This document shows positions 9,282-34,231 of a stretch of DNA of 36,056 nucleotides, piece by piece. The stretch is taken from positions 1 through 36,056 of IMG/VR virus record IMGVR_UViG_3300025769_011338; one strand, written 5' to 3'. Below the pieces are notes generated by a model. That model was not told the origin of the DNA and made no database searches. It worked only from the letters and a program-made list of their open reading frames with translations. Each line of letters starts with the position of its first letter. Positions within the stretch are counted from its first letter, which is position 1. The DNA is from a virus. Position numbers and translations under genes: made by a program.

Positions 9282-9283
9282 GT

Positions 9284-9907: not shown

Positions 9908-10197
9908 ATATTTATGTAGACATAGATGAGACTATTTGCTTTTACGAAGGTGAACGAAATTACGAAAAAGCTATCCCAAACTTTGATAATATAAAAAAAA
10001 TTTGTATATTGTATGATAAAGGTCATACCATAACCTATTGGACTGCTCGTGGAAGTGTTACTGGTATAGATTGGTATGATATAACTAAAAAGCAATTAGA
10101 TGATTGGGGGTGTAAATATCATCATCTAATCGTAGGAGAAAAACCAGCATACGATTTACTAATATGTGATAAAACAAAAAGAATAGAAGAGTTATGA
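9904..10197 (+). CDS. HAD-family phosphatase, capsule-biosynthesis type
   Basis: This 97-residue minimal HAD protein has motif I DIDETI (D6, D8), the motif II threonine in YWTARG and a late lysine/aspartate pair in EKPAYDLLICDK. The size and pattern resemble the small phosphatases found in capsule and polysaccharide clusters (BcbF/EcbF type), which remove phosphate from sugar intermediates. It starts the markedly AT-rich core of the glycan block and overlaps the oxygenase gene as ATGA. A substrate such as a nonulosonate 9-phosphate is conceivable given the NeuB-like gene nearby, but is not shown. Confidence 0.7.
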   Translation: MNIYVDIDETICFYEGERNYEKAIPNFDNIKKICILYDKGHTITYWTARGSVTGIDWYDITKKQLDDWGCKYHHLIVGEKPAYDLLICDKTKRIEEL

Positions 10198-11812: not shown

Positions 11813-11815
11813 TTT

Positions 11816-15547: not shown

Positions 15548-15556
15548 AGGTTACAT

Positions 15557-16630: not shown

Positions 16631-16632
16631 TT

Positions 16633-17352
16633 ATGAATTGTATTGTATGTGATGAAAGTATGGATTTGATTAAAACGGATGTACATAAATGTACTGAATG
16701 TAATCACATCTTCATTGATTATAAAGATAATGGATTGGATTATCACAAAAATGAGTACAGAAAAAATGGACAAGGCAATAGGACTAATTCAAATATAGAA
16801 ATTGTAAATGGTGTATTTACAAATGAATTTCACAAAGTTCGTGATCGGATAATGAGTAAAAGAGTAAAACTCGTTAAGAAGTATACTAATGTTAATTTAG
16901 ATAGTAGTATATTAGATATAGGTGCTGGTGGTGGAACATTTGCTAAAAAAATGAAAAGTGATTTAGGTATTCAAATAGAAGTTCAAGAGATTAGTGATAT
17001 TTGCATAAATAATTTAATTATGATGAAATTTAATGTACACAAAGGAGACTTTTCAGAAATTAAATTTGATAAACAATATGACTTAGTAACTTGTTGGCAT
17101 GCATTAGAGCATATAAAAGATTTACATAGTTATGCAGAAAATCTTTCTGAAGTAACCAAAGACATTTGTATATTAGAAGTTCCAATTAACAGAAGTTTAA
17201 AAGAACCTAATAATGGTAATTGGGATGGTCATTATCATTTTTTTACTGAAAAATCTATGACAAAATTATTTGGTAAATATTTTAGTTCTTTAGAATTTTC
17301 AACAACAGAATCAGTACAACAACCTGCATTATTAACTATACTAAAAAAGTAA
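16633..17352 (+). CDS. Zinc-knuckle class I SAM methyltransferase
   Basis: This 239-residue protein begins with a CxxC...CxxC knuckle (MNCIVCDESM, then HKCTECNHIF; C3, C6, C20, C23). The methyltransferase domain follows, with ILDIGAGGGTFAKKM as the SAM loop and VTCWHALEHIKD in the post-II region typical of Methyltransf_23. Zn-knuckle plus methyltransferase is the architecture of sugar C-methyltransferases in polysaccharide clusters, although the extra C-terminal domain of those is absent. The function is probably sugar methylation in this operon. Confidence 0.78.
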   Translation: MNCIVCDESMDLIKTDVHKCTECNHIFIDYKDNGLDYHKNEYRKNGQGNRTNSNIEIVNGVFTNEFHKVRDRIMSKRVKLVKKYTNVNLDSSILDIGAGGGTFAKKMKSDLGIQIEVQEISDICINNLIMMKFNVHKGDFSEIKFDKQYDLVTCWHALEHIKDLHSYAENLSEVTKDICILEVPINRSLKEPNNGNWDGHYHFFTEKSMTKLFGKYFSSLEFSTTESVQQPALLTILKK

Positions 17353-17353
17353 C

Positions 17354-18148
17354 ATGACGATTACGAAAGAATTTAAAGATGAGTTGGTATCATTTGAAAC
17401 TATAGAAGAGCGGTTAGATTTTTTGAAAAACAAATTTAAAGATAAAACTGCATATTTAGTATCTTGTGGGCCGAGTTTAACAAAAAATGACCAATCATTA
17501 CTAAAAGAAAGATTAAAAGATGAGTTGGTGATATGTGCTAAACAATCTCTGAATTATCTGAATGAGATATGTGACATACATTTAGTATCAACATACAATT
17601 TCCAACCATATGATTATAAGAACCCAAACACAATTAAGTCTTGGCAGCTTACAGCAATGAATATGCAAAATGAATTAAATAGAATTGTGTATGAATGGGG
17701 GCATGATATTGATTTGTATTTTCCAGTTATATCAGGCCCTTGGATTACATTAGAAGGTTCAACTGCATATACAAGAAATTTTGATAACTGGAAAAAACTA
17801 GGTACAGATACACAAGTTCTATGGGGACCTGGAATATTATACGAATCTGGATTCCCAATGTGTTATCTACTTGGAGTATCTAAAATAGTTACTATTGGTT
17901 GGGACATTGGTGACATTAGTAGATATAATGGTAACGATCGTGACCCTAATTGGATAGAACAACACGCACAAGAATTATATACATCTAATGTGGGCAAGGG
18001 CCCAAGTTATATAGAATTAAAAAATACAATAGAATGTACATCGGATATGTATGAATGGTTTGAAAGACAGAGTATTCAAGTAGAAATACTATCAGATACA
18101 AATCCAGCAGATAATAGGTTTAAACGAATAAAAATAGAAGATTTATGA
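17354..18148 (+). CDS. DUF115/GT42-like putative glycosyltransferase II
   Basis: This 264-residue protein has AYLVSCGPSLTKNDQSLL (the GPSL loop), LVICAKQSLNYL, CDIHLVSTYN and a late FPMCYLLGVSKIVTIGWDIG. This is the same two-block layout as the GT42-like gene at 12654, but the two are not close copies. Proteins of this fold include sialyltransferases, DUF115 motility-glycan transferases and MptE-like pyrophosphokinases. Given NeuB- and NeuA-like genes a few kilobases upstream, a second nonulosonate transferase is a fair hypothesis. Overlaps the next gene as ATGA. Confidence 0.5.
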   Translation: MTITKEFKDELVSFETIEERLDFLKNKFKDKTAYLVSCGPSLTKNDQSLLKERLKDELVICAKQSLNYLNEICDIHLVSTYNFQPYDYKNPNTIKSWQLTAMNMQNELNRIVYEWGHDIDLYFPVISGPWITLEGSTAYTRNFDNWKKLGTDTQVLWGPGILYESGFPMCYLLGVSKIVTIGWDIGDISRYNGNDRDPNWIEQHAQELYTSNVGKGPSYIELKNTIECTSDMYEWFERQSIQVEILSDTNPADNRFKRIKIEDL

Positions 18149-18918
18149 AGAATGTAATTGTTATTTATAGAATTAGTGACCATTCTAATCCTGAAAAAAT
18201 AAAACCACAATACGCTACAAAAGAAAATTGTCTTAAAACATTAGTTAGAGAATTTGGTTCTGAACATTTGTATGTTGTATGTGACAATGTATCAGAGCAA
18301 ACACATATTATGGTAAAAAAATATTCTAACAATATAGATTTAACAAATAATGGTAATACTGGTACATTTTTATATAGTTGGAGAAAAGCATACGATATAA
18401 CAAAAAATATGTCAGATGACACAATCGTATATTTTGTAGAGGACGATTACATTCATTGTCGTAATTCTAAAAATGTTTTAATAGAGGCTTTTGATTTGTT
18501 AGGTGCACCATATGCCACATTGTATGACCATCCTGACAAATATCAAGATAAAAATGATATTAGATTTAAATGGGGTCATGGTAAGATTGATATTGATGAT
18601 AATGGCGTTAGAAAACCATTGAATGTTTATGCACATGGTGAGGATACTGTGGTTTACGCATCAAAATCATGTCATTGGAAATTAACAAGTAGTACAACAA
18701 TGACATTTGCTACAAGTGTAAAAAATGTTAGAGAGGATATGGATGATATGATTAAACTCCATACAGGTAAAAATTTACCAATGGGTGGATCTACATTTAA
18801 GTTATTAGCAAAAAAAGGTAAAGGGTTGATTAGCTCGATTCCAGCTTATACTGCACATGCTGAAGAAAGGTGGTTACCATATTTTAGAAATTGGCAAGAA
18901 GAGGCGACAGCTATATGA
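18145..18918 (+). CDS. Putative GT-A glycosyltransferase
   Basis: This 257-residue protein has a Rossmann-like start (KNVIVIYRISDH), an acidic segment IVYFVEDDYIHCRNSK near residues 92-107 where EDD could be the metal site of a GT-A enzyme, then AFDLLGAPYATLYDHPDKY. No exact family is recognised beyond GT-A resemblance. Its position between two other putative transferases and the ATGA overlaps on both sides place it firmly in the glycan operon. An alternative is a non-catalytic relative. Confidence 0.55.
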   Translation: MKNVIVIYRISDHSNPEKIKPQYATKENCLKTLVREFGSEHLYVVCDNVSEQTHIMVKKYSNNIDLTNNGNTGTFLYSWRKAYDITKNMSDDTIVYFVEDDYIHCRNSKNVLIEAFDLLGAPYATLYDHPDKYQDKNDIRFKWGHGKIDIDDNGVRKPLNVYAHGEDTVVYASKSCHWKLTSSTTMTFATSVKNVREDMDDMIKLHTGKNLPMGGSTFKLLAKKGKGLISSIPAYTAHAEERWLPYFRNWQEEATAI

Positions 18919-19850
18919 AAACAAAGTTCGCAATAGGTTGTTTAGTACAATGGTATGAATCTGAAATGATATCAGAATATGTTGAAACACTAAAAGAAGC
19001 AATATCACAATATGATGGAGAGGTGGTAGTAGACTTTAGAGTTGTAACAAATGAAGATTTGGAGAAATGTATCAGTACTGAACAAAAAGAGAAATGTATT
19101 AACAACATAAAAAGTACATTAGAGGATTTTGATGTTGTATTTGAAGATAGGTTATACACCATAGCAGACTATCGTAGAGAGTTCAACGATAGGTATTGTG
19201 ATGAAGTAGATGTTTTGGTTTGGGGTGAATCTGATATGTTAGTTCCAAAACAAATGTTTATCATATTGAACACCTTACATCAAATGTCTACTACTAATAA
19301 TCCAAAATATTTAGCATTCTTTGGTACTTGCAAAATGTGGGATGATTCTTGGAAATGTGTTGAACATACAGATATGACTGATAAACCTATTGATAATAAA
19401 AAGTGGTGGGGCACTCGTTATCAGATGTCTATTGACGAAATGAACGATATTAATGATAAAGTAGAGGAATTGGATGTTAGAATAGTATCACCACATAAGT
19501 TCAATGGTTGTGGTTTGGTAATCTCATCAGAAGTAATAAAATCGGGTGTCAATATACCCAAATCAGTATTTTTTACGCATGAGGATTCCGCTCTTATGTA
19601 TGTAACTAATAAACTTTTAGGAAACATACCACAATATGTTATAAAAAACATTTTGTTAGTACATAATAGAGAACATAAGAATAAAAGAAATTACATATTA
19701 GGTGAGTGTGGTAACACATTAGGAGAACGCCGTAAATCTAGTAGTTGGTACAACTCCGCTAGTAAAATGAGCGAAGAAAATTATAAAAATATATTCAACC
19801 CTAATTACAAATCTAAAACTTGGAATGATGTATGGAACAACATAAAATAA
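18915..19850 (+). CDS. Putative GT-A glycosyltransferase, large
   Basis: The start at 18915 gives an ATGA overlap with the upstream gene; an in-frame ATG at 18891 would overlap it by 28 bases and is less likely. The 311-residue product has VLVWGESDMLVPKQMF (an ESD acidic motif at the expected GT-A metal-site position), KFNGCGLVISSEVI and FFTHEDSALMYV. These resemble the glycosyltransferase order of metal site, acceptor glycine loop and ED catalytic patch. Base composition is intermediate between the AT-rich core and the flanks. The sugar specificity is unknown. Confidence 0.55.
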   Translation: MKTKFAIGCLVQWYESEMISEYVETLKEAISQYDGEVVVDFRVVTNEDLEKCISTEQKEKCINNIKSTLEDFDVVFEDRLYTIADYRREFNDRYCDEVDVLVWGESDMLVPKQMFIILNTLHQMSTTNNPKYLAFFGTCKMWDDSWKCVEHTDMTDKPIDNKKWWGTRYQMSIDEMNDINDKVEELDVRIVSPHKFNGCGLVISSEVIKSGVNIPKSVFFTHEDSALMYVTNKLLGNIPQYVIKNILLVHNREHKNKRNYILGECGNTLGERRKSSSWYNSASKMSEENYKNIFNPNYKSKTWNDVWNNIK

Positions 19851-20716
19851 CAACCTGCATTTCCACTAACAACAATTTAGACTATGTAAAGTTGGCTTAC
19901 CAATCTGTAAGAAAAAACGCATACTACAAAGACCAACCAATTGTTATCATAGCTGAAAATTGTAATGATGGTACAAATGAGTGGTTGGAATCGCAGATGA
20001 TAGTGGACACAAATCTTAAAGGGTACATAGAATCAAATGAAATCCCATTGGGAATTGGTGGTGGTATGGACTATTGTGTAGACAAAGCAAATACCGAATA
20101 TGTAAATATCATTCATTCAGATATGTGGATTGCGCCCAACCAAGACTTAGAGTTACAAAAGATAGTAGAATCTAATAAGGGTAGGGTTATCGCATCATCA
20201 TTCAGAATCCAACCAAAGATATTCCCAAACGATCCTGACTATAGACCAGGTACTGTCTTTGTACCTATATCTGAATTTGGTGAGTATCATCACAACTTTA
20301 ACACAGACCATTTTGATAAGTGGGCAGTCGAATTTTCAAATGAAAACAACATTAGTGTTCGTAAAGGTGGTGGTGCAGGATTCTTTTGTAGGAAAGAAGA
20401 CTATGAGTGGATTGGTGGAAACGACCCAATATTCTCACCTGCATCATTTGATGATATGGACTTATTCATTAGAATGCAATTAGAGGGGTATGAATTTGTA
20501 ATGACTACTAAATCTGTGGTGTATCACTTCTCAGCTAGAGGTTCACATTTCAGAGATGATAATCTCAATAAAAAATCAGACAGACAAATACTTGCTGAAG
20601 TTGATAATACTCATAAATTTTTTAAAAAATGGGGGCAATTACCTGAAGTAGATGATCAAACCTTTGTTAAACCAATTTATGGTACTAACAACCCTAATAG
20701 AATACAATTGTTGTAA
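19832..20716 (+). CDS. Glycosyltransferase family 2
   Basis: This 294-residue GT2 protein opens with KITTCISTNNNLDYVKLAYQSVRKN, has IAENCNDGTNEWLE, and places its metal site in VNIIHSDMWIAPN (SDM in place of DxD). GGAGFFCRKEDYEWIGGNDP marks the acceptor region, and VYHFSARGSHF is the late histidine motif. It overlaps the previous gene by 19 bases. It is a close relative of the next gene in layout (same motif order), so the pair probably arose by an old duplication. The composition returns to that of the phage backbone. Confidence 0.8.
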   Translation: MEQHKITTCISTNNNLDYVKLAYQSVRKNAYYKDQPIVIIAENCNDGTNEWLESQMIVDTNLKGYIESNEIPLGIGGGMDYCVDKANTEYVNIIHSDMWIAPNQDLELQKIVESNKGRVIASSFRIQPKIFPNDPDYRPGTVFVPISEFGEYHHNFNTDHFDKWAVEFSNENNISVRKGGGAGFFCRKEDYEWIGGNDPIFSPASFDDMDLFIRMQLEGYEFVMTTKSVVYHFSARGSHFRDDNLNKKSDRQILAEVDNTHKFFKKWGQLPEVDDQTFVKPIYGTNNPNRIQLL

Positions 20717-22518: not shown

Positions 22519-22827
22519 ATGCCATCGGTTAGTAAACAACAACAGAAGTTATTTGGGTTAGCATTGTCAGTAAAGAGAGGTGACACTCCAAAGTCCAAAG
22601 TATCCAAACAAGTAAAGGATTTGGTGGACAGAATGAGTGATAAAGATATTGAGAAGTATGCTAAAACAAAACGGAGTGGTTTACCAAACAAAGTTGAGAT
22701 GGAATTGGAATCATTGATTAATAAGATTGATGAGGAGTGGTCAGACAAATACAAACGAAGTATCGATTGTAACAACCCCAAAGGGTTCAGTCAGAAAGCT
22801 CATTGTCAAGGTAGAAAGAAAAAGTAA
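22519..22827 (+). CDS. DUF3008-like phage protein with cysteine tail
   Basis: The 102-residue protein starts MPSVSKQQQKLFGLALSVKRG and continues SKQVKDLVDRMSDKDIEKYAKTKRSGLP, the pattern of DUF3008-like proteins (a short basic helical domain). The C-terminal motif SIDCNNPKGFSQKAHCQGRKKK has two cysteines and a basic end. Tails of the form DCxNPKGFSQ(K/R)AHCxGRKK recur in marine phage proteins, often structural ones. It is expected in the virion or a head-assembly role by association, not proof. Confidence 0.6.
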   Translation: MPSVSKQQQKLFGLALSVKRGDTPKSKVSKQVKDLVDRMSDKDIEKYAKTKRSGLPNKVEMELESLINKIDEEWSDKYKRSIDCNNPKGFSQKAHCQGRKKK

Positions 22828-23471: not shown

Positions 23472-23909
23472 ATGACACTAATCAAATCAACAACTGCCCA
23501 AATTATTATGGCGTTATCCACATTTTGTGGGTTTATGATGAGTTACTTTATGAAACTCACAGCAGACAATGTAGAACAATACTTAGCAGTTGTATCGGTA
23601 ATGTTGTTGGATGGATTCTTTGGAATCATCGCAGGTATCAAAAGAGAGGGTTTCAAAACCTATAAGGCACTTAGGGTGTTAAAGAACATATTCGCATGGG
23701 AGTTGATACTGACTGCTATACTATCAATCGAATTAGGATTTACAGGTACGGCGTGGTTGTCAGAAACAATATTAGCACCATTCTTAGTCTTCCAACTTAT
23801 ATCAGCACTCAAAAACGCATCAATGGCTGGGTTCATCAAAAACGAATTACTGAATGAGATTCTTGATAAGATTGATAGGCATAAGGGAGAACGAGATAAG
23901 AGTCAGTAA
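23472..23909 (+). CDS. Holin-like membrane protein
   Basis: The 145-residue protein has several membrane segments: MALSTFCGFMMSYFM, VVSVMLLDGFFGIIAGI, IFAWELILTAILSIEL and ETILAPFLVFQLISAL. It has a charged C-terminal tail (LDKIDRHKGERDK). The layout matches phage holin family proteins of Bacteroidota, which form membrane lesions that free the endolysin. The start at 23472 follows the endolysin stop by four bases; an in-frame start at 23445 would overlap it by 23 bases. The last base overlaps the kinase start (TAATG), tying the kinase to the lysis operon. Confidence 0.72.
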   Translation: MTLIKSTTAQIIMALSTFCGFMMSYFMKLTADNVEQYLAVVSVMLLDGFFGIIAGIKREGFKTYKALRVLKNIFAWELILTAILSIELGFTGTAWLSETILAPFLVFQLISALKNASMAGFIKNELLNEILDKIDRHKGERDKSQ

Positions 23910-25159
23910 TGAACATATTCAGAGGTATATCAGTTACAGGTAAGTTATCACTATTAACATCAATCATCATTATGGTGGTTTTTTTTGTTATACAAACTTG
24001 TGTAGTATTTGAATTAGTTGAAACATCCTTAACATTAGAAAGATTTGGTTGGTGGTGTATTGTACTCTTCATGCCACCATTTTTCAAAGTGGGATACGAA
24101 CTAAGTAACAATGTTAAGGTAAGAGAAGAAACTGTAGATGCACAACTATCGGCAATCAATAGGTCTAACCTCGTTGTAACAATTGGTATGGATGGTAACA
24201 TCATTCAAGCAAACGAAAACTTCTGTAATCTTATGGGGTATACTACATCAGAGGTCATAGGTAAACCACATAGACTTATGGTGACCAAATCATACTCAAA
24301 GAGTAAAGAGTACGCCAACTTTTGGGAAACGCTACGAAGGGGTGATATCATTACTAATCAGTTTCAGAGAGTTGCAAAGGATGGTAGTGAAAGGTGGTTG
24401 TATGGTAACTACACCCCAATCAGAAACAAAGATGGTGAGTACACAAAGGTACTAAAGATAGCAACTGATGTAACAGCACAACATGATGCAGAAGAGATAG
24501 TAAACCAAAAGAACTCATACTTAGAACACGCAGCTAAGATACTCAGACATGATATGCATAGTGGTATCAACACATACATGCCGCGTGGACTATCATCATT
24601 AAAAAGAAGGTTAACGAAAGACTCAATAGATGAATTGAAAATAAAAGCACCTCTCAAAATGTTAGAAGAAGGGTTGAAACATACCCAAAAGGTATATGAG
24701 GGTGTTAAGGAATTTACCAATTTGGTAAAAGAGAATGTACAATTAGATGTTGAGGAGTTTAATTTAGGAGAGATACTCGAAGACTATCTTTCATCTACAT
24801 CGTACAAAAAGCAAGTTTTAATCGGAGAGTTACCCACAATAGAGGTAAACGATGCATTATTTTGTACAGCCATAGACAACCTCATTCGTAATGGATTGAA
24901 GTACAACGATAGTTCTACGAAGATGGTTTCAATATATATGGAAGACAAAGATACATTATGTGTAGAAGATAATGGTAGAGGGATGACTACAGAAGAGTTT
25001 GTTGAGTTGTCCAAGCCATATAAGAGAAGAGAAGGTCAAGAAGAAGGCGGATCGGGATTGGGGTTGAATATATGTATCGCAATTCTGAATCAGCATGGTT
25101 TTGATATGAGTGCAGAAAAAGTTAAATCAGGAACTAAATTAAGGATAAGGTTAAAATGA
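23909..25159 (+). CDS. Membrane-bound PAS sensor histidine kinase
   Basis: This 416-residue hybrid-free kinase has two membrane segments (about 13-35 and 46-63), a PAS domain (about 80-190: LVVTIGMDGNIIQANENFCNLMGY, ITNQFQRVAKDGSERWLYG, VLKIATDVTAQHDAE), a HisKA-like helix pair with H214 in ILRHDMHSGIN, and a HATPase_c domain. The latter shows the N box (DNLIRNG, N324/N328), G1 (VEDNGRGM, D354) and G2 (GGSGLGL, 380-386). Autophosphorylation of H214 would pass phosphate to a receiver such as the next gene, which it overlaps as ATGA. It starts inside the holin stop. The periplasmic loop is only about 10 residues, so sensing is probably via the membrane or the PAS domain. All key residues seem intact. 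Confidence 0.9.
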   Translation: MNIFRGISVTGKLSLLTSIIIMVVFFVIQTCVVFELVETSLTLERFGWWCIVLFMPPFFKVGYELSNNVKVREETVDAQLSAINRSNLVVTIGMDGNIIQANENFCNLMGYTTSEVIGKPHRLMVTKSYSKSKEYANFWETLRRGDIITNQFQRVAKDGSERWLYGNYTPIRNKDGEYTKVLKIATDVTAQHDAEEIVNQKNSYLEHAAKILRHDMHSGINTYMPRGLSSLKRRLTKDSIDELKIKAPLKMLEEGLKHTQKVYEGVKEFTNLVKENVQLDVEEFNLGEILEDYLSSTSYKKQVLIGELPTIEVNDALFCTAIDNLIRNGLKYNDSSTKMVSIYMEDKDTLCVEDNGRGMTTEEFVELSKPYKRREGQEEGGSGLGLNICIAILNQHGFDMSAEKVKSGTKLRIRLK

Positions 25160-25602
25160 GCACAATGATTAATTCTATTTTGTTGGTGGATGATGAGGAT
25201 TTGTTCCACTTAGTATTTGAAGATGCGTGTAGTATTTTGGATATAACCCTTTCATTGGAAGCATTGAATTCTTCCGATGAAGCAGATGCAATGTTTAAGA
25301 AATGGTTTCCAGACGACCCAAATCACGAAAGACCCGAATGTGTATTCGTTGATTTGAACATCGTTGGTTCATCGTTTGATGGAATCGAACTGATTCATAA
25401 AATCAACTTTGACTATGGGAACGGATGTGTAATTGGTATTATTTCATCATCTGATGATAACCAAGAAATTGAGAAAGCAAAAGAAGCAGGTGCTCAGTTT
25501 TGGATTATCAAATCAGATGACATTGAACCAAGATTGGAAGAGTTCAGAAATGACTACGAAGGATACTTAAACAAAACTAACCCATTCAAAGTATATAAGT
25601 AA
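25156..25602 (+). CDS. Stand-alone response regulator receiver
   Basis: This 148-residue REC domain shows LLVDDED (acidic D12, D13), phosphoacceptor D66 in CVFVDLNIVG, the switch serine in IGIISSSDD (97-99) and the invariant K119 in FWIIKSDD. There is no DNA-binding or enzymatic output domain; the about 20 residues after the domain end with NKTNPFKVYK. Single-domain receivers work by protein contact or as phosphate shuttles, as in CheY. An insertion between the third strand and the phosphoacceptor (WFPDDPNHERPE) lengthens it. It overlaps the kinase gene, so cognate pairing is likely. Confidence 0.9.
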   Translation: MSTMINSILLVDDEDLFHLVFEDACSILDITLSLEALNSSDEADAMFKKWFPDDPNHERPECVFVDLNIVGSSFDGIELIHKINFDYGNGCVIGIISSSDDNQEIEKAKEAGAQFWIIKSDDIEPRLEEFRNDYEGYLNKTNPFKVYK

Positions 25603-26384: not shown

Positions 26385-26524
26385 ATGAACTAAAACAACA
26401 TTTGGAAGAGGTGTACACTAAATACAAAAACTCTAAGTTCACCAAATATGAGTCACAAATCAAAGAAATCATCCGTGAGGAGATTGAGCTTGTATCAAAA
26501 TATCTGAAGGGGAAGAGTGCCTAA
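26381..26524 (+). CDS. Small 47-aa protein with IREEIEL helix
   Basis: Read from the GTG at 26381 (overlapping the previous TGA), the product is MNELKQHLEEVYTKYKNSKF..., with SQIKEIIREEIELVSKYLKG at its end. The LK/IREE helix is common at the termini of small proteins and N-terminal propeptides of T4-like phage structural genes. It overlaps the next gene's GTG by eight bases. A scaffold or propeptide role is guesswork. Confidence 0.45.
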   Translation: MNELKQHLEEVYTKYKNSKFTKYESQIKEIIREEIELVSKYLKGKSA

Positions 26525-27929
26525 TTTTAGTCGAAAAGATATGCCGCAGGTAAAGACCCAAGATTTGGGTAAGGCACTTTCTATGGTTGCTGATAAGGTA
26601 AAAGTGACCAAAGAAACTATTGTAGCATCAAAGTTGAAGAAATCACAAAAGGAACTATATAAAGATAAGGTTCAAGGTATAGCAAACAGATTCACATCTC
26701 CAAATAAAATGAAACCCCTAATCATATCAAAAGACAATCATATTGTAGATGGTCATCATAGATGGGGAGCTGCAATCCATAAATGGGGTGATGATGTAAA
26801 GTTGAATGTACACCGAATCCATCTATCAGCTAAGAACGCCATCAAACTATACAAACACATTGCAAACACAATCAATGAGATATTAGAAAATATCACAATC
26901 CCTATCAAAGTGGGTGATACTGTATTGGGTGGTAAGTTCAAAAACAAACGAATTGTAGTGAAGTCAATCGATAAGAACGAAAAGGGTGACATTACAATCA
27001 ATGGCAAGCCATTACTTAAATACAGATTGGTGAATGAAGGTAAACTAGACTCTGAGTTAGAGAGTAAGTATGGTGTAAGTGTTGATGTGTTTGAATACCC
27101 AACACATTTAGAACTTAAAAGAATAGTAGTTCCAGATGATAAACGAGGTATGGGTATTGGAACTGATGTTATGAATGATTTGATTAAATATGCCGTAAAA
27201 AACAATAAAGACATCTTCACAACCCCAAGTTCGGACTTTGGTGGTACTAAATCTAGATTAGTCAAGTTCTATAAATCATTTGGATTCAAAAATAATAAAG
27301 GGTCTAAACGAGATTTTAGGAGTAGAGAGAGTATGGTTCGGTTAAATTCAGTATTAGATGAAGGTAACGACCAATTAGAAATGATGAAGTTACTCAGTAA
27401 GGCAATGAAGGCAATGCCAGGTTCACCAAAACAGAAGAAGATTAAGCAGGAGTTGAATAAACTCAGAATCAAAAATGGGTTAGAACCAATTCCAGAATCA
27501 GTATTAGATGAGGCATGTTGGAAGGGATACAAACAAGTAGGTGGTAAGAAGAAAGGTGGTAAGATGGTGCCAAATTGTGTACCTATCAATGAAATTCCAA
27601 TGAGTGACCTTAAAAAGATTGACAGATTTGCAGACTTTAAGTTGAGTCCAGTTGATATGGTATTAACCGACAAACATTTTTTTGACAGACTAAACGACCC
27701 CAGAAACGAAAAAGAGATTTCAAACGCAGAGTTGATTGGTTTTATAAAAAGGTTATCAAAAAAGAAATCTGAGTTTATAGAGTTCTTAAATAAGTACAAC
27801 TCATTAGTAGCTACTGATGACAGAACCAACATTAATATACCATTTATGAAGAAGGCTAATAAGGCAATTGCTAAGACTGTGATGAGAAAGAGGGGCTTCA
27901 AAACTCCTGACAAAAGGTTGGATATATAA
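26517..27929 (+). CDS. Mosaic protein: ParB-like, SH3-like and GNAT domains
   Basis: The 470-residue product (GTG start at 26517; internal ATG at 26541) reads as a chain of unrelated domains. Residues about 55-115 are ParB/sulfiredoxin-like (IISKDNHIVDGHHRWGAAI). Residues 128-170 form a KOW/SH3-like barrel (IPIKVGDTVLGGKFKNKRIVVKS). Residues 185-278 are a GNAT acetyltransferase domain (LKRIVVPDDKRGMGIGTDVM, LVKFYKSFGF). After these come two SVLDE sites (278-282, 328-332), then ACWKGYKQVGGKKKGGKMVPNCVPINE, a motif I know from marine phage structural proteins. The last 110 residues contain KHFFDRLNDPRNEKEI, a pattern seen in phage proteins of unknown role. Probably a virion or ejected protein cut by a protease. 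Confidence 0.65.
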   Translation: MPNFSRKDMPQVKTQDLGKALSMVADKVKVTKETIVASKLKKSQKELYKDKVQGIANRFTSPNKMKPLIISKDNHIVDGHHRWGAAIHKWGDDVKLNVHRIHLSAKNAIKLYKHIANTINEILENITIPIKVGDTVLGGKFKNKRIVVKSIDKNEKGDITINGKPLLKYRLVNEGKLDSELESKYGVSVDVFEYPTHLELKRIVVPDDKRGMGIGTDVMNDLIKYAVKNNKDIFTTPSSDFGGTKSRLVKFYKSFGFKNNKGSKRDFRSRESMVRLNSVLDEGNDQLEMMKLLSKAMKAMPGSPKQKKIKQELNKLRIKNGLEPIPESVLDEACWKGYKQVGGKKKGGKMVPNCVPINEIPMSDLKKIDRFADFKLSPVDMVLTDKHFFDRLNDPRNEKEISNAELIGFIKRLSKKKSEFIEFLNKYNSLVATDDRTNINIPFMKKANKAIAKTVMRKRGFKTPDKRLDI

Positions 27930-27948
27930 AAAATATTTCGTATATTAT
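27917..27948 (+). promoter_or_regulatory. Candidate promoter P5
   Basis: GTTGG (27917-27921), 19 bases, TATATTAT (27941-27948). The -7 box overlaps the ATG at 27947, so if real the transcript starts inside the reading frame and the true start is later, for example the ATG at 27980. Confidence 0.35.
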
Positions 27949-28714
27949 GGTTCGACTAAGACATTTAATAGTAGAGAGTATGTACGACAAACTCACAGGT
28001 GAAATCAACAAAGACATCTTCAAAACAATGAAGAATGCTATCAAAGGTAGTGGTACTCAAGAAAGACCCAAAAAGTATAAGGGGTATGTTGTTCGTAAAG
28101 ACCCGATTCCAAACACAACTATGAACAAATTATTTGATAGTGAGAGAGCCACACTTTATGTTAACGACTATGATGATAAGGTGAGTGGTATCGAAGTTAC
28201 TGTTGAACTAAAACTAGCCGTTACAGAAGATGGTGTAGAGCCGGGCAATTTTTTCATAGATGGTTCGGCTGATGCTGATATAGATTGGCCTCAAATTGAA
28301 GTAAATATTGGTATCCACCCAGATGATGTTAAAAGTGGTAGAATATTTTCTAAAATACAACCTGTGTTGAGGGATTTGGTTAGACATGAGATAGAACACC
28401 TAACGCATGGTAAGGATTCAGCAGCAGAAAAACCAGGAAAACGAATGCAAGGTGATAAGGCAATGCGTAGAAAAATCAGACAGAATCCTGAAATATACTA
28501 TAAGTACTATCTGTTACCAAAAGAGGTTGATGCAAACATTCATGGGTTGTATTCTAGAGCAAAGACATTGAAACAACCATATCAGAAGGTAGTAGATGAT
28601 TACTTAGATTCATTGGTTGATGATGATGTAATAGACATCAAAAAAAGAAAACTGATTTACAACACTTGGAAGAATAGAATACCAAAGATTGGTGGTATTC
28701 CAACACTAAAGTAG
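27947..28714 (+). CDS. HExxH metallopeptidase-like protein
   Basis: The 255-residue protein has LRDLVRHEIEHLTHG with H147-E148-x-x-H151, a zincin signature, and a later E193 in YYLLPKEVDANIHGLY placed as a third zinc ligand would be. The N-terminal MVRLRHLIVES is like the short propeptide of phage internal proteins. If promoter P5 is used, translation would begin downstream at residue 12 (MYDKLTG). Prohead assembly or ejection-linked proteolysis is plausible. The sequence is not a recognisable member of a named peptidase family. Confidence 0.55.
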   Translation: MVRLRHLIVESMYDKLTGEINKDIFKTMKNAIKGSGTQERPKKYKGYVVRKDPIPNTTMNKLFDSERATLYVNDYDDKVSGIEVTVELKLAVTEDGVEPGNFFIDGSADADIDWPQIEVNIGIHPDDVKSGRIFSKIQPVLRDLVRHEIEHLTHGKDSAAEKPGKRMQGDKAMRRKIRQNPEIYYKYYLLPKEVDANIHGLYSRAKTLKQPYQKVVDDYLDSLVDDDVIDIKKRKLIYNTWKNRIPKIGGIPTLK

Positions 28715-28715
28715 T

Positions 28716-29858
28716 ATGGAAGCATTGAAACTTAAAATACCATCGGACATAACCAAAATCCACAGAGCATTCAAAAAGAGTGGTAAGAAACTCTATGTTG
28801 TTGGTGGAGCGGTAAGAGATGCGATTTTGGGTAAGAGTCCAAAAGACTTTGATTTAGCTACTGATGCAAAACCTGATGAGGTTCTGAAGATTGCTACCGA
28901 TAACGGATTCAACACCGCTGAAGTTGGTAAAGCATTTGGAGTGGTGATTGTAAATGGTAATGAGATTGCTACATTCAGAAAAGACATCGGTAAGGGTAGA
29001 CGACCCACATCTGTAGACTACACAGATATTGAAGGTGATGTACGAAGACGAGATTTGACTGTCAACGCTCTTTTCTATGACATTGATAAGAAAGAGATAG
29101 TCGATTTGGTTGGTGGTATAGAAGACCTAAAGAAGAACAAAATCAGAACTGTAGGTAAAGCAGTAGAGAGATTCGAAGAAGACCCACTCAGAAAATTGAG
29201 GGCATTGAGATTCCAAGCCCGATTGGGAGGTACATTCGATAAAGACTTACTATCAGCACTACAAAACGACCCAACACTAAAAGGGGTAAGTGCTGAGAGA
29301 ATCAGAGATGAGTTCATCAAATCAATTAAGTCAGCAAAGAGTCCAAAGGCCTATATGGAGATGAATGATAAGATTGGGTTCACCAAACTTATACTACCAT
29401 CTTTGAAAGTAACCAAACCATACATAAACGACAACGACTACATTATATTCTTAGCATCTCTACTGAGAAAGAACCCACCAACTTTATTATCTAAACAACT
29501 AAACAAATTAACATACTCAAATGAGGAGTTAAACAACATAGTGTTTTTGGTGTCATTACAACACTTCAAGCCTGAGATGATAGTGGACTACAAAAGATTT
29601 CAAAAGAGAACCACTTTATCAGATGACCAAATTGTAAATTTCGGTAAGGTTATCAAAATGAACCTACAGAAGTTTACTAACTTTAATTTATCTGTTAGTG
29701 GTAAGGATGCACCATCAGATATGAAGGGGCCAGATATTGGTACTTGGATTAAGAACACAGAAAGAGATAAGTATGTGAATGAAAATTCAAATAATATTAC
29801 TTTTGATGTGTTGTTGTCTGATATATTCAAAGACGAAATCAATAAGATAATTCACTAA
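28716..29858 (+). CDS. cca: CCA-adding tRNA nucleotidyltransferase
   Basis: The 380-residue class II nucleotidyltransferase adds CCA to tRNA 3' ends (or poly(A), in the PcnB relative). The head domain has LYVVGGAVRDAILGKSPKDFDLATDA, with catalytic D44 and D46, then FGVVIVNGNEIATFRKD and the RRRDLTVNALFYD and GGIEDL motifs; then VERFEEDPLRKLRALRFQARLG, the tRNA-binding neck. The C-terminal third is short and does not look like an HD domain, unlike PcnB/Cca of enteric bacteria. The symbol cca is used by function; the PcnB alternative remains. No tRNA gene was seen in the window. Confidence 0.88.
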   Translation: MEALKLKIPSDITKIHRAFKKSGKKLYVVGGAVRDAILGKSPKDFDLATDAKPDEVLKIATDNGFNTAEVGKAFGVVIVNGNEIATFRKDIGKGRRPTSVDYTDIEGDVRRRDLTVNALFYDIDKKEIVDLVGGIEDLKKNKIRTVGKAVERFEEDPLRKLRALRFQARLGGTFDKDLLSALQNDPTLKGVSAERIRDEFIKSIKSAKSPKAYMEMNDKIGFTKLILPSLKVTKPYINDNDYIIFLASLLRKNPPTLLSKQLNKLTYSNEELNNIVFLVSLQHFKPEMIVDYKRFQKRTTLSDDQIVNFGKVIKMNLQKFTNFNLSVSGKDAPSDMKGPDIGTWIKNTERDKYVNENSNNITFDVLLSDIFKDEINKIIH

Positions 29859-29869
29859 ATTTAAAATCA

Positions 29870-29877
29870 TATTTATA
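29870..29877 (+). promoter_or_regulatory. TATTTATA motif (candidate late promoter)
   Basis: TATTTATA in CATATTTATATAC lies five bases ahead of the ATG at 29882. A leader this short is unusual for a promoter, so it could also be a start-associated sequence. Confidence 0.3.
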
Positions 29878-29881
29878 TACA

Positions 29882-30121
29882 ATGAACTACGAAAAGAAAG
29901 TAATGGTCAACGCATATGAAATTCTAACCAAAAAGGATTTTGAATGGAGTTATGAGTTCAACCATAGTATGAGAGTTCAGTTTGTAAACCTGTTATTGGA
30001 ATACTTTACTGAGGTGGAACACTATGAGAAATGTGCAAAGTTGGTTACCATACTAAAAGGTTTGGAGAATATGAATGAAAATATTAGTGAAACAACTACC
30101 ACAGGAAGTGACAACAATTAA
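29882..30121 (+). CDS. Hypothetical 79-aa protein
   Basis: The protein is mainly helical (MNYEKKVMVNAYEILTKKDF, QFVNLLLEYFTEVEHYEKCAKLVTILKGLE) with a Thr/Asp-rich low-complexity tail (SETTTTGSDNN). No family is recognised. The 3' part overlaps the next small gene in another frame by 47 bases; the low-complexity tail lies in that overlap, so its coding value is doubtful. Confidence 0.5.
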   Translation: MNYEKKVMVNAYEILTKKDFEWSYEFNHSMRVQFVNLLLEYFTEVEHYEKCAKLVTILKGLENMNENISETTTTGSDNN

Positions 30122-30236
30122 AGGTCACATTGTGTATGTTATGAATGATGATGGAAGGCCTATTGAGGCTGATGTTTGTGATTTGATAGACTTAAAAGAA
30201 GTGATAGAGAATTTCAAACTGAAATACGATTTATGA
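30075..30236 (+). CDS. Small 53-aa protein
   Basis: This product starts MKILVKQLPQEVTTIKGHIVYVM and ends DLKEVIENFKLKYDL, a plausible small strand-helix fold. It overlaps the tail of the previous gene and joins the ClpS-like gene by an ATGA overlap at 30233. No family. The chain of tight overlaps makes it likely real. Confidence 0.5.
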   Translation: MKILVKQLPQEVTTIKGHIVYVMNDDGRPIEADVCDLIDLKEVIENFKLKYDL

Positions 30237-30463
30237 GACTATTTATATTAAATGATAATGTAAATACCTTTGAACACGTCACTATGGTGATTCAAAAGTA
30301 TCTCAATTATCCACATCTTCAGGCTGGGTCAATAGCAAACATCGTTCATAATAATGGTGTATGTGAAGTAAAAGACTCAGACGATGAGGTTTTGATAACA
30401 GAGATATATCAATCGATGGTGAAAGAAGGTTTGAGCATGAGAATAGAAGGTGGTGATGAGTAA
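30233..30463 (+). CDS. ClpS-like protease adaptor core
   Basis: The 76-residue protein matches the ClpS core: FILNDNVNTFEHVTMVIQKYL resembles the YNDDVNTFDHV start of Bacteroidota ClpS, and IANIVHNNGVCEVKDSDDE matches the HNNGKCAVK block. The N-degron pocket residues are mostly kept: N7 and D8 for NDD (third residue N9 instead of D) and H39. In cellular ClpS an N-terminal extension of 20-25 residues is needed to hand substrates to ClpA. Here the protein starts directly at the core, so that extension is absent. It could bind N-degrons without delivering them. It overlaps the next gene (ATGAG). Confidence 0.72.
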   Translation: MRLFILNDNVNTFEHVTMVIQKYLNYPHLQAGSIANIVHNNGVCEVKDSDDEVLITEIYQSMVKEGLSMRIEGGDE

Positions 30464-30623
30464 ATCAAGAGGATTGGGTGATGATATCAAAAAGATAACA
30501 TCGGCAACTAAGTTGGATATCTTAGCAGAAAAGATTGCCAAATCAGTTGGTAAGTCCGATTGTGGGTGTAGTGGTAGACAGGACAAATTGAACAAAATGT
30601 TCCCATACGGAGATAAAAAATGA
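30456..30623 (+). CDS. Small cysteine-containing 55-aa protein
   Basis: The product has RGLGDDIKKITSATKLDILAEKIAKS, then KSDCGCSGRQDKLNKMFPY. A CxC motif with conserved KLNKMFPY is a pattern I have seen in Bacteroidota phages without function. It overlaps the start of the 821-residue protein by four bases (ATGA), and the ClpS-like gene by eight bases. Likely real; no function. Confidence 0.55.
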   Translation: MSKSRGLGDDIKKITSATKLDILAEKIAKSVGKSDCGCSGRQDKLNKMFPYGDKK

Positions 30624-33085
30624 ATTTAAGAGAATTTATACAATCAGAGATAAAATCACAAATAAGTGAATCAGTAAACGAAGCCAAAACATATAAAAAA
30701 GGTGATAAACTTAAAATCAAATTAAAAAACGGAAAAAAGTTTGATGTAGTATTTGATTCATATTCTCGTACAAAAGGAGTGGCATTGGGTAAGTTTAAGG
30801 ATAGAAGTGGAGAATATGACACTAAACCATTCAATTTAGATACAATCGTAGAATCAGTAAACGAAGGATTCAAATCAGAATATGAAGGAAATGATGGTAT
30901 AGTTTGGAAAAAGGGAAAAACACGAGGCGATGTTACTAACTTTACTCCATATTATAAAGGACACGATATTGATAAAGGTGGGTATAATTTTAAAACAGAA
31001 AAAGAATTAAAAGATTTCATTAAAGATTATATTCTTTCAAATCAGTTATACAACAAATATAGATTTGAATCAGTAAACGAAGAAAAAGAGGTCAGGCTTA
31101 ATGAACTTTCCACAGGTACATATAGAGCGGCAATGCAAGCAGGTCTTGATAGAAACGATTCTAAAGGTGATAAAATTGCAAAAGATGCCTTAAATAACTT
31201 TGGTCGAGCACTTGCTAAAAATTTACAAAGTCAAAAGTGGGAAGTAAAATCGGCTCGAAACCCAGGAGCACTTTATTATTCTGCTGGACTTAGTGGAGAT
31301 GCACCTAAACATGGTCAATATGAAATCGAATTTACTGGGAAAGGTAGATTCTTAAGCGTAAGTCCTAGAGAAGTTATTGGTTCTAATGATGTAAGTTGGT
31401 TAATGGAAGTAATTGTTAGACCTGGAGACTCTATGGGGTCGGGGTCGGAGTTTAAATTTACTGGATATAGAGACTTTGGAAATAAGGCTATTGCAAATGT
31501 CCAACTCTCTATCAGAGGTGGAAGTGTAGAAGTTTATACTAGAGGATCCGATAGGGCAATATTAGAGTTTACAAGACGAGGTGCTAGAAAGCTTGCAAAT
31601 GTAGCTCAATTAATTTCTCTTGAACTTGAAATGCCGGATAAAATAAAACATAATTCCATCAAGCAATTTAATCCATTAACTGTTAGTGAATCAGTAAACG
31701 AAGCTTCAGATTCATTAAAGTTAAAGGGTATTAAAATTAATAAAAAGAATCCTATGACTTTTGTTTTAGAAGTTAGTTTCTTTGTTGGAGGTGAAGTTGT
31801 TACAAGTTATTTAAGCACGGGAACACAACAAGATGCACAAAAACTAAAAAGTAAAGTTGAAAAAGCATTTAATGCTGGAAAAATAGATTCTCCATCGGGC
31901 ATTGGTTATTACGCATATAATGAATCAGTAAACGAAAAATACACTGGAAATCCGGGTGATAAGTTAGTACATAAACACTATAAAAATATTGAAATTGAAC
32001 TAATAGAACCTACAAATAAAGGATGGAAGGTATATCAAAGTGTAGATGGTAAAAAACCAAAGATAAAATATTTTCATAAACAAGATATAGTAGGGAACAA
32101 GGCTTTGTTCGAATCAGAACACTTAGATGAAAAACTAATTACATTCTCAAACAGGTCACCCTACGGACAGATAGTCTTTATGGCAGGTGGCGCTGCTAGT
32201 GGTAAAGGATACGCTATTGATAACTTTATTGACGCAGCTGGATTCAAAGTGAGAGATGTTGATGAGATGAAGAAAGCCGTTGGTAAATTAGACCAATTGG
32301 GTAAGTTCTCAGTTGATAAGTGGTATAAGAAATATGGTAACAAACTCAAACCAAAAAACAAAGCTCACATTGAAGAATTTGTATTAGGTAAGGGAATGAC
32401 TATCGCAGATGTCGCATCAGACCTAAAGAATCCTAACAATGTAATGTCACTACACCTTATCGTAGATGCAATGGGACTAAAGGATAAGTGGTTAATCAAT
32501 ATGTTGAAAGGAAAGCAAAATAAAGAAACTTTACCTAACTTACTATTCGACATCACAGCTAAAAAGGTGGGTTCAATCACATCTGTAATCAAGCCATTGG
32601 TGGATGCAGGTTACGACTCCAAAAACATTCACCTTATATGGGTATTAACAAACTATCATTTGGCAGTTAAGCAGAATAAGGAAAGGAGTAGAGTAGTTCC
32701 TGATGATATCTTACTCTTAACGCATGAAGGTGCTGCTAAAACTATTTGGAGCATTTTGACTTCTGGCTTACCTAAAGGGTTGGATGGTAGAATTGATGTA
32801 ATCCTAAACAACAGAGAGAACACATTGTATTGGGTTAAACCAAGCATAAGAAAATCAGATGATGATGGTAAAAAATTCGGAATGAGTAAGAGTTTGAAAG
32901 GTGATAATGTAAAGGTAGGTGTTGTGGCTGGATTTAAATCATTACCAATCAAAAAACAAGGTGGTGGTATTACTCCAGAAAAAGAGTGGAAGAAGGAATT
33001 ATATGGGTGGGTTTTAGATAATGGGCCTAAGACTGTCGATTTAAGAAAACCATTGGATACTCAGTTGGAGGGAAGGGATGGCTAG
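30620..33085 (+). CDS. 821-aa repeat-linked polyprotein with P-loop domain
   Basis: The protein is a string of modules separated by ESVNE at residues 17-21, 78-82, 150-154, 357-361 and 435-439, with a variant (ESEHLDE) at 498-504. Module 1 (22-77) is an SH3-like basic barrel (KGDKLKIKLKNGKKFDVVFD). Modules of about 70, 200 and 75 residues follow, without recognised families. The last part (505-821) holds a P-loop, GGAASGKG at 523-530, in QIVFMAGGAASGKGYAIDNF, of the zeta-toxin/kinase-like type. The short N-terminus (MNLREFIQSEIKSQIS) looks like a prohead propeptide, and VNE/LDE fit a T4-type prohead protease rule (hydrophobic-x-Glu). Likely an ejected or internal virion polyprotein. Confidence 0.65.
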   Translation: MNLREFIQSEIKSQISESVNEAKTYKKGDKLKIKLKNGKKFDVVFDSYSRTKGVALGKFKDRSGEYDTKPFNLDTIVESVNEGFKSEYEGNDGIVWKKGKTRGDVTNFTPYYKGHDIDKGGYNFKTEKELKDFIKDYILSNQLYNKYRFESVNEEKEVRLNELSTGTYRAAMQAGLDRNDSKGDKIAKDALNNFGRALAKNLQSQKWEVKSARNPGALYYSAGLSGDAPKHGQYEIEFTGKGRFLSVSPREVIGSNDVSWLMEVIVRPGDSMGSGSEFKFTGYRDFGNKAIANVQLSIRGGSVEVYTRGSDRAILEFTRRGARKLANVAQLISLELEMPDKIKHNSIKQFNPLTVSESVNEASDSLKLKGIKINKKNPMTFVLEVSFFVGGEVVTSYLSTGTQQDAQKLKSKVEKAFNAGKIDSPSGIGYYAYNESVNEKYTGNPGDKLVHKHYKNIEIELIEPTNKGWKVYQSVDGKKPKIKYFHKQDIVGNKALFESEHLDEKLITFSNRSPYGQIVFMAGGAASGKGYAIDNFIDAAGFKVRDVDEMKKAVGKLDQLGKFSVDKWYKKYGNKLKPKNKAHIEEFVLGKGMTIADVASDLKNPNNVMSLHLIVDAMGLKDKWLINMLKGKQNKETLPNLLFDITAKKVGSITSVIKPLVDAGYDSKNIHLIWVLTNYHLAVKQNKERSRVVPDDILLLTHEGAAKTIWSILTSGLPKGLDGRIDVILNNRENTLYWVKPSIRKSDDDGKKFGMSKSLKGDNVKVGVVAGFKSLPIKKQGGGITPEKEWKKELYGWVLDNGPKTVDLRKPLDTQLEGRDG
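30668..31936 (+). repeat. Five exact 15-base repeats GAATCAGTAAACGAA
   Basis: Identical 15-mers lie at 30668-30682, 30851-30865, 31067-31081, 31688-31702 and 31922-31936, each encoding ESVNE in frame inside the polyprotein. Identity at all third codon positions exceeds what protein constraint requires. Confidence 0.85.
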
Positions 33086-33212
33086 AGCATTATCAAATAC
33101 AAAAATAGAATCCAAAAGTAGAAAGAGGAGGGGTGTTCACTCAAAAAAGAGGACATCCAAAATGAAACACTCTAAACACTACAAAAAAAAGTACAGAGGA
33201 CAAGGAAAATAA
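33078..33212 (+). CDS. Highly basic 44-aa protein
   Basis: The product is MARALSNTKIESKSRKRRGV, then HSKKRTSKMKHSKHYKKKYRGQGK: more than a third Lys/Arg, with RRGVHSKKRTSK and YKKKYRGQG blocks I recall from small phage proteins. It overlaps the polyprotein end by eight bases and is followed by a terminator. Probably a nucleic-acid-binding or condensing peptide of the virion; function unproven. Confidence 0.6.
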   Translation: MARALSNTKIESKSRKRRGVHSKKRTSKMKHSKHYKKKYRGQGK

Positions 33213-33216
33213 TTTG

Positions 33217-33245
33217 AAGGGGATTTGGATAAGTCCCCTTTTTTT
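33217..33245 (+). terminator. Terminator with promoter box in its loop
   Basis: Stem AAGGGGA (33217-33223) / TCCCCTT (33234-33240), ten-base loop TTTGGATAAG, T-tract to 33245. The loop contains TTTGG at 33224-33228, the -33 box of promoter P6. Confidence 0.85.
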
Positions 33246-33255
33246 ATTATATTGT
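33224..33255 (+). promoter_or_regulatory. Promoter P6, overlapping terminator
   Basis: TTTGG (33224-33228), 19-base spacer, TATATTGT (33248-33255); the ATG of the next gene is at 33263. Confidence 0.5.
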
Positions 33256-33262
33256 AGTACAA

Positions 33263-33424
33263 ATGGCAAAGAATAAGAAACATAAGGATACTTTGGACTT
33301 CAATGGTGGTTGGACATCAGGTGAAGCTGCTCGCCACATCGGTAAGAAAATGACCGAACAAGTGGTAAAGAGTAAGAAAGTCTACACTCGTAAGAAGAAG
33401 CATAAGAACAAAGATTTAATATAA
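33263..33424 (+). CDS. Small basic 53-aa protein
   Basis: The product is MAKNKKHKDTLDFNGGWTSG, then EAARHIGKKMTEQVVKSKKVYTRKKKHKNKDLI. A short central WTSGEAARHIGKKM between lysine-rich ends hints at a DNA- or RNA-contacting peptide. It is downstream of promoter P6 and ends before the next promoter. No family. Confidence 0.5.
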   Translation: MAKNKKHKDTLDFNGGWTSGEAARHIGKKMTEQVVKSKKVYTRKKKHKNKDLI

Positions 33425-33425
33425 T

Positions 33426-33479
33426 TTTAACACTTAGGATTTGGATATATCAACTATTATTCGTACTTTAGTTCTGTAA
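33426..33479 (+). promoter_or_regulatory. Promoter P7 with upstream box
   Basis: Upstream box TTTAACACTTAGG (33426-33438), TTTGG (33440-33444), 19 bases, TACTTTAG (33464-33471), TGTAA (33475-33479). The final A is the first base of the start codon at 33479, so the transcript is probably leaderless. Confidence 0.65.
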
Positions 33480-33982
33480 TGATTAAGGATATGTACCAAA
33501 TAGTATTAGACTTCGCAACCAAAGCGCATGGTACACAACTGAGGAAGTACACCAACGACCCTTACATCATCCACCCCATTGCTGTCGCTAAGATGGTTAA
33601 GGATATGGGTGGTGATGACAATATGGTTTACGCAGCTCTCCTCCACGATGTGTTAGAGGACACCGATGTTACTCATAGTCAGTTGAGGACATTTCTGTTT
33701 CAGAACTTTGATGTCGCTGACGCTACTGACATTCTAAGTTTGGTGGTTGACCTAACTGATGTATTCACAAAAGATAGTTTCCCTCAACAAAACAGAAAAC
33801 TAAGGAAGACCAACGAAGCAAAGAGATTGGGTGTGGTAAGTGACCGAGCAAAACTCATCAAAGTCGCAGACATCAAACACAACTCAGACTCTATCACTAA
33901 GTATGACCCTAAGTTTGCTAAGGTGTTTTTGGCGGAGAAGGATGTACTCTTACAATATATGGGAATGTTAACAAAACTTTAA
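33479..33982 (+). CDS. SpoT/MESH1-like HD (p)ppGpp hydrolase
   Basis: The 167-residue HD-domain protein keeps RKYTNDPYIIHP (H32), the HD pair H56-D57 followed by E60-D61 in LLHDVLEDTDVT (the HDxxED signature of RelA/SpoT hydrolase domains), and D131 in IKVADIKHNSDSI. It has no synthetase or regulatory domain, like small alarmone hydrolases. It would remove the 3' pyrophosphate of (p)ppGpp and lift the stringent response. Its own strong promoter and separation from late genes suggest early expression. Other HD nucleotide hydrolases remain possible. Confidence 0.78.
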   Translation: MIKDMYQIVLDFATKAHGTQLRKYTNDPYIIHPIAVAKMVKDMGGDDNMVYAALLHDVLEDTDVTHSQLRTFLFQNFDVADATDILSLVVDLTDVFTKDSFPQQNRKLRKTNEAKRLGVVSDRAKLIKVADIKHNSDSITKYDPKFAKVFLAEKDVLLQYMGMLTKL

Positions 33983-34031
33983 CATTTAAAGTTTGGTAGT
34001 CTCAGATATTATTCATACATTAGTACTGTAA
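33978..34031 (+). promoter_or_regulatory. Promoter P8 with upstream box
   Basis: Upstream box TTTAACATTTAAA (33978-33990) overlaps the end of the hydrolase gene; TTTGG (33992-33996), 19 bases, TACATTAG (34016-34023), TGTAA (34027-34031). It drives the genes from 34034. Confidence 0.65.
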
Positions 34032-34033
34032 AA

Positions 34034-34231
34034 ATGAGAGATATGACAAACGAACAGAAGATTCAACAACGAAAGCTGGAGAAGCAAATACACTATGGAC
34101 GTGGTATTACTCCCCAACAATGGGATGTGTTGATAGAACTACGCAAGATAGATTTAACGGCGCGAGGTCTAAATCCTAACCATTTCAATTTGGACTCACG
34201 TTATTGTGAAAAAAAGCTAAGTTACAGATAA
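34034..34231 (+). CDS. Hypothetical 65-aa protein
   Basis: A small charged protein, MRDMTNEQKIQQRKLEKQIHY, followed by GRGITPQQWDVLIELRKIDLTARG. No family. It starts three bases after the promoter's TGTAA and overlaps the next gene's leader. Real by context; function unknown. Confidence 0.5.
   Translation: MRDMTNEQKIQQRKLEKQIHYGRGITPQQWDVLIELRKIDLTARGLNPNHFNLDSRYCEKKLSYR

Follow-up and report, generated by a model that had tools for sequence, protein, structure and literature searches.

What is a 15-base sequence doing five times over, without a single change, inside one phage gene? The window analysed here, a virus record of 36,056 bases taken at its full length, contains an open reading frame (ORF) at 30620-33085 in which GAATCAGTAAACGAA occurs in five exact copies, each encoding ESVNE in the frame of the ORF. 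The copies, each on the + strand, start at 30668, 30851, 31067, 31688 and 31922, and the record holds no further exact copy beyond these five. With up to three mismatches allowed, 12 matches were found against 2.3 expected, a number reached in 0 of 100 shuffles. A first-pass annotation had pointed out the five identical in-frame repeats and proposed that they serve as recombination joints for module shuffling and as cleavage sites for a prohead protease. The repeats are confirmed, and the interpretation is largely borne out. We consider it probable that the encoded protein is a polyprotein of the prohead core, that the phage is an uncultivated T4-like one and that each joint is both a recombination repeat and a gp21-type cleavage site. 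Its parts are as follows.

30620 to 33085, + strand: mosaic polyprotein ORF of 821 codons
30620 to 30682, + strand: N-terminal leader MNLREFIQSEIKSQISESVNE, a predicted capsid-targeting propeptide that ends at joint 1; predicted helix at 3-14; resembles MKTYQEFIAEA of T4 ipII/ipIII
30668 to 30682, + strand: joint 1, GAATCAGTAAACGAA, encoding ESVNE; a breakpoint in the relatives L319 and L321
30683 to 30850, + strand: module 1, 56 aa; found alone in L033, L355 and L358 at 85-94% identity, with homology stopping at the joints
30851 to 30865, + strand: joint 2, exact 15-mer
30866 to 31066, + strand: module 2, 67 aa; found in L191 without module 1, at 83% identity and between two exact 15-mers
31067 to 31081, + strand: joint 3, exact 15-mer
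31082 to 31687, + strand: module 3, 202 aa; without a relative in the fetched loci and without a Pfam match
31688 to 31702, + strand: joint 4, exact 15-mer
31703 to 31921, + strand: module 4, 73 aa; in other contexts in L090 (84%) and L334 (79%), with joint-bounded homology over 355-437/359-442
31922 to 31936, + strand: joint 5, exact 15-mer; fused directly to the N-terminal leader in L321
31937 to 32110, + strand: module 5, 58 aa; in the 200 nt that follow the joint, 98-99% identical to L321 in DNA
32111 to 32131, + strand: sixth, degenerate joint (ESEHLDE), recognised by comparison with L319; a low-confidence loop (486-497) lies just before it
32132 to 33082, + strand: C-terminal module, predicted zeta-toxin-like P-loop kinase (phrog_5268, Foldseek against BFVD, T4-like isolates)

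The junctions thus listed are six rather than five. The sixth reads GAATCAGAACACTTAGATGAA and precedes the zeta-like module. At the same place the close relative L319 has GAATCAGTAAACGAATCAGAACAATTAGATGAA, the full 15-mer followed by SEQLDE, so that the window's sixth joint resembles, and apparently is, a 12-nt in-frame collapse of a 15-mer.

An AlphaFold model of the full-length product is of modest confidence (pLDDT 59) but shows separate domains and a helix in the leader; joints 2-5 sit in loops with pLDDT below 50, and joint 1 does so only partly, bordering such a region. A common 61-aa module, trimmed exactly at its joints, folds confidently as a complete domain (pLDDT 88). Foldseek against the PDB gave no significant match for either the full ORF model or this module. 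By profile and by model, the C-terminal module is predicted to have a P-loop kinase fold with phage zeta-like homologues: it matches phrog_5268 (E 2e-43) and, in Foldseek, predicted phage zeta-toxin-domain proteins of BFVD (TMt 0.78, E 7.6e-18), it contains an AGGAASGKG motif, and it is about 35% identical to proteins of T4-like isolates. The Pfam zeta-toxin model did not match, and no Pfam family covers the C-terminal region. Searches of isolate phages with the whole ORF and two other mosaics matched the zeta-like domain alone and returned no ESVNE mosaic. Further, none of ten module representatives scored above the Pfam cut-off, no peptidase or LPD domain was found by Pfam in the ORF, and one module from elsewhere gave a non-significant LPD30 match (E 0.14).

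Several other genes of the window deserve mention. A second mosaic protein (26517-27929), with a GNAT-like domain and a ParB-like region, contains the modules 'ITVPIKVGDTVLGG' and 'CWKGYKQVGG..NCVP' and has looser joints (LVNEG, SVLDEG); two of its modules also lie inside the zeta polyprotein of L028, which indicates that modules move between different genes. A DUF3008 protein (22519-22827; PF11450, 6e-14) ends in a tail, KYKRSIDCNNPKGFSQKAHCQGRKKK, that is found again where the L341 mosaic begins, and DUF3008-like starts head several other mosaics (L107, L123). DruA is known from Druantia defence, and a DruA-like protein (27-896; PF14236, 6e-21) adjoins clamp-loader genes. Judging from the translations, 23909-25602 encodes a PAS-type sensor histidine kinase and, after it, a receiver protein resembling response regulators, which is unusual in a phage, and 6077-20716 is a long sugar-modification island with glycosyltransferase, NeuB-like, FkbM-like and other genes.

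If the 15-mers are recombination joints, as the annotation suggested, relatives should gain, lose or swap modules exactly there, and many do. L319 is 97.9% identical to the window over 29820-30689 and 97% identical over 33078-34059, and its two exact 15-mers enclose a single, unrelated module instead of window modules 1-5. L321 goes straight from the leader to module 5, with joint 1 fused to joint 5: upstream of its joint it is 96% identical to the sequence at window joint 1 and 29% to that at joint 5, and downstream 98-99% identical to joint 5 and 40% to joint 1. Sixteen distinct module presence/absence events were found between near-identical genes (blocks of 90-99.8%). In these the shorter gene retains a single 15-20-nt overlap containing the 15-mer, and the modules gained or lost measure 174-642 bp, every length being divisible by 3. 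Such collapse to a single repeat, as read from the alignments, is what recombination between direct repeats leaves behind. The full 15-mer lies in the overlap of only 17 of 46 presence/absence cases, with the reading frame kept in all 17; in many of the other 29, the overlap consists of pieces of the joint.

The same holds in bulk. In BLASTP of the window protein, homologies begin and end at joints (module 1, 15-83; module 2, 76-156; module 4, 355-437). A breakpoint test at the protein level gave 21.5% against 6%, diluted by other linkers, and DNA-level tests were added for this reason. Among DNA alignments of at least 88% identity across all mosaics, 12.9% start exactly on a joint start against 0.4% under the null and 13.6% stop on a joint end against 0.7%; in 87, each end lies no more than 6 nt from a joint. 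Where near-identical blocks differ by a replacement or indel, 47% of the events have a breakpoint no further than 3 nt from a joint, against 2% at random (one-side null). Many alignment breakpoints fall away from any recognisable joint. The 640 segments contain 85 module families with at least two members, internal modules having a median length of 72 aa. In 26 of the 27 families with at least four members, three or more different neighbours occur on a side, and the 61-aa module, which occurs 28 times, has 19 neighbours to its left and 20 to its right. Sequence comparison therefore establishes module swapping at the joints, and relatives that keep the same modules on divergent linkers without exchange, the pattern that would have spoken against the proposal, are not what was found. 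As an observation apart, the L319 ORF that starts from 5755 has EVVSE twice, at residues 516 and 616, with identical DNA (GAAGTAGTATCCGAA), which suggests other joint families.

The second proposal was that the ESVNE peptide fits a T4-type prohead protease rule, hydrophobic-x-Glu. This fit stands for the phages concerned, whose own capsid site is [VL]-x-E before A, but valine at P3 falls outside the strict T4 rule, by which gp21 cuts after L/I-X-E and ten residues suffice as a capsid-targeting sequence (CTS) (PMC9026906). When the major capsid protein, gp23, of 19 records was aligned to T4 gp23, all 19 had QL[VL][SDTK]E followed by A at the T4 E65/A66 site, which matches the joint, VNE followed by A or G. 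The C-terminal tail of the gp21-type protease holds P.NE[GS]-type motifs. Among breakpoint peptides [ILVM].E[AG] is enriched 3.7-fold, against 1.07-fold for the control [ILVM].K[AG].

The protease itself, for which a search had been suggested, is absent from the 36-kb window, itself a fragment, but is found in relatives: in two sets of records with mosaic genes, gp21-type PF03420 occurs in 22 of 31 and in 28 of 46. Of 39 contigs no longer than 15 kb, 24 contain it by our own count; for a genome of roughly 170 kb, chance would give less than 10%. Mosaic genes flank gp21 in 152 gene pairs at 112 loci, partly overlapping between searches, on the same strand in all and with a median gap of 542 bp. 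The head clusters follow T4 order, namely TerL, gp20, gp21, mosaic gene, gp22-like and gp23, with TerL, gp20 and gp22-like assigned by eye and gene order. In the 169-kb record of L321 (G079) gp21 is missing because the head cluster is where this contig begins and ends. Both of its ends break inside mosaic genes beside that cluster, and repeats of the 15-mer kind may fragment assemblies and so hide gp21.

Leaders point the same way. In many proteins of these phages the first 9-10 residues form a leader with [LI]xE at its end, as in T4 capsid-targeting sequences such as the shared N-terminus of IPII and IPIII, and the pattern M..L..[LI][LIVM].E is found in 247 ORFs, of which some, e.g. TerL starts, may be unrelated, against at most 28 with any other residue in place of the Glu, which mostly lies at residue 9-10. 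The leader of the window polyprotein fits a short N-terminal targeting sequence with a predicted gp21 site at its end. Elsewhere in the window, the protein of 27947-28714 begins MVRLRHLIVES, with a leader 10 residues long that is of the capsid-targeting type, and is possibly another internal head protein.

The joint might instead be a recombination hot spot or hitchhiking repeat in a covalent multidomain protein, in which it would form an exposed linker that stays uncut. Such a linker would suit a DNA identity that exceeds peptide conservation, and cleavage is so far deduced from sequence. However, when joints diverge (ESINE, ESVTE, ESVVNE, ESLNE) the DNA changes while the hydrophobic P3 and the Glu at P1 stay. 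As the capsid maturation site and the tail of the protease show the same pattern, and as mosaic genes adjoin gp21, we regard an uncut linker as unlikely.

Is the joint, conversely, a protease site and nothing more? The DNA-level conservation bears on this question. An exact 15-mer scan of viral contigs returned at least 120 stretches; about 114-115 of the 120 listed loci carry ESVNE in frame (counted from the table), and among the matches listed dozens of ORFs hold several copies. As this set was selected by DNA, more loci were gathered by protein, with two common modules, the zeta-like domain and window modules 1-2 as queries, giving 77 non-redundant proteins with 162 joints. Of the ESVNE sites in this protein-selected set, 59% are the exact 15-mer; the codon usage of these genes would predict 4.4%, which makes the excess 13-fold. 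Compared with the background of the same genes, joints use AAC in 80% against 37%, GTA in 94% against 48% and TCT in 2% against 31%, AAC being a minority Asn codon in such genes. Further, codon identity of aligned joints stays at 0.86-0.90 across 20-79% amino-acid identity, whereas that of E/S/V/N codons in the modules climbs from 0.55 to about 0.75 over the same range; the two converge above 80%.

On the protease-only account, the DNA identity would stem from recent linker duplication or codon preference, and modules would move by illegitimate recombination. Variant joints and the breakpoints that fall elsewhere agree with it. The 13-fold excess, a joint identity that does not decay as modules diverge and the single-repeat collapse in 16 distinct events all argue against it, and we give it little credence. 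Together with the module swaps, this identity beyond codon expectation supports the first-pass view of the 15-mers as recombination joints.

The conserved block extends slightly beyond the 15-mer. The next base 3′ is G in 80% of copies, so that the block is taken as 16 nt; in the DNA logo the 15 nt and this G are conserved and flanking bases lie near background. This G is the first base of Ala or Gly codons, and these two residues are the most frequent ones at the predicted P1′. A strongly conserved 16-nt block with near-background flanks, including codons other than the commonest, is also what the recognition site of a dedicated site-specific recombinase or nuclease moving modules as cassettes might look like. 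T4-type microhomology recombination would suffice, however (PMC9391042). Joints of altered sequence also exchange modules and no recombinase gene was found, though without a systematic search, so a dedicated enzyme of this kind appears very improbable. Finally, chimerism of short-read assemblies at repeats, suggested by the 15-bp identical repeats at joints and by the one contig whose ends fall in mosaic genes, is hardly credible as the source of the mosaics, as the k-mers of ordinary assembly are longer than 15 bp, the same arrangements occur in independent contigs (e.g. L046 and L053, L011 and L099) and the frame is kept in 17 of 17 joint cases.

Returning to the dual-use joint, the following course is proposed, with packaging, cleavage and ejection modelled on T4. 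The amphipathic N-terminal leader would target the polyprotein into the prohead, where the gp21-type protease would cut after each [VIL]-x-E joint (ESVNE before A or G) during maturation, so that the zeta-like kinase and the small modules come free within the head. The freed pieces would then be ejected into the host with the DNA, as T4 internal proteins and Alt suggest. As DNA, each joint is an identical phase-0 direct repeat of 15-16 bp; recombination between repeats, by a presumed enzyme and either within one genome or between co-infecting phages, deletes, inserts or swaps whole modules. T4 recombines at microhomologies of 2-10 bp (PMC9391042). Because the repeat is in phase 0, modules could be exchanged without loss of frame, and because the peptide is a putative gp21-type site, regenerated at each exchange, any new arrangement could be cut apart in the prohead.

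If correct, this gives a concrete mechanism by which phages diversify the proteins delivered at the start of infection: with a fixed DNA joint, every swap is in frame and every product cuttable. It predicts that many hypothetical ORFs of T4-like environmental phages are internal head polyproteins whose cut sites are legible from sequence, and it offers a catalogue of small uncharacterised domains (85 families) as candidate anti-defence or takeover factors. The idea that one sequence is both DNA joint and peptide cut site becomes directly testable.

Among known systems, the T4 internal proteins IPI, IPII and IPIII and Alt are the most similar. The two systems share a short N-terminal leader with an [LIV]xE cleavage motif (predicted here), a gp21-type protease and the head gene order TerL, gp20, gp21, gp22-like, gp23, and an ejected host-takeover payload is plausible here as well; T4 IPIII is needed on some hosts (PMC9391042). 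However, T4 internal proteins yield one mature protein per gene, whereas here six modules lie between predicted sites and the repeats are identical in DNA; no homology between them and the modules was apparent in a comparison made without IP profiles. The mosaic polyprotein is probably a variant of the T4 internal head proteins. By gp23, the nearest phages in culture are Microcystis phage Mel-JY01 (60%) and Flavobacterium Immutovirus (56%). LNE/VNE (phi-N-E) joints lacking the 15-mer are present in the 841-aa gp191 of Immutovirus, and a search for the 15-mer and repeats found no identical joints in the head clusters of either phage.

PeSL modules, the mobile regulatory cassettes of T4-type phages, are short conserved DNA elements that promote shuffling of small units; they combine a promoter and a stem-loop, are intergenic and flank whole genes. 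PeSL cassettes share short conserved DNA and small-unit shuffling with the present case, but all five 15-mers are coding, in frame and inside one ORF. In the literature searched, 'ESVNE' was not found, and the only related work joining 'prohead protease' and 'polyprotein' concerned polyvalent proteins. These multidomain proteins of phages and plasmids are thought to enter the host with the DNA and to rely for their processing on embedded peptidases, most of them zincin-like (Iyer et al. 2017, PMC5512222). The polyprotein analogy and multidomain build are shared, whereas here no peptidase domain was found and the protease would act in trans. In the texts consulted, repeated identical DNA joints are described neither for polyvalent proteins (PMC5512222) nor for the T4 internal proteins with a CTS. 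Mosaic phage proteins with recently exchanged domains, among which tail fibres, lysins and replication proteins were highlighted, present a similar domain shuffling, and the terms 'linker', 'microhomology' and 'head protein' are absent from that text (Smug et al. 2023, PMC10684548).

A bolder version, which we hold only tentatively, sees a dedicated in-frame cassette system, its 15-16-bp joint selected both as recombination signal and as protease site and serving a shared pool of injected effector modules. Such a system would be comparable to exon shuffling, whose design the polyprotein resembles without introns, and to integron cassettes, but it would operate inside one reading frame and sort itself by proteolysis.
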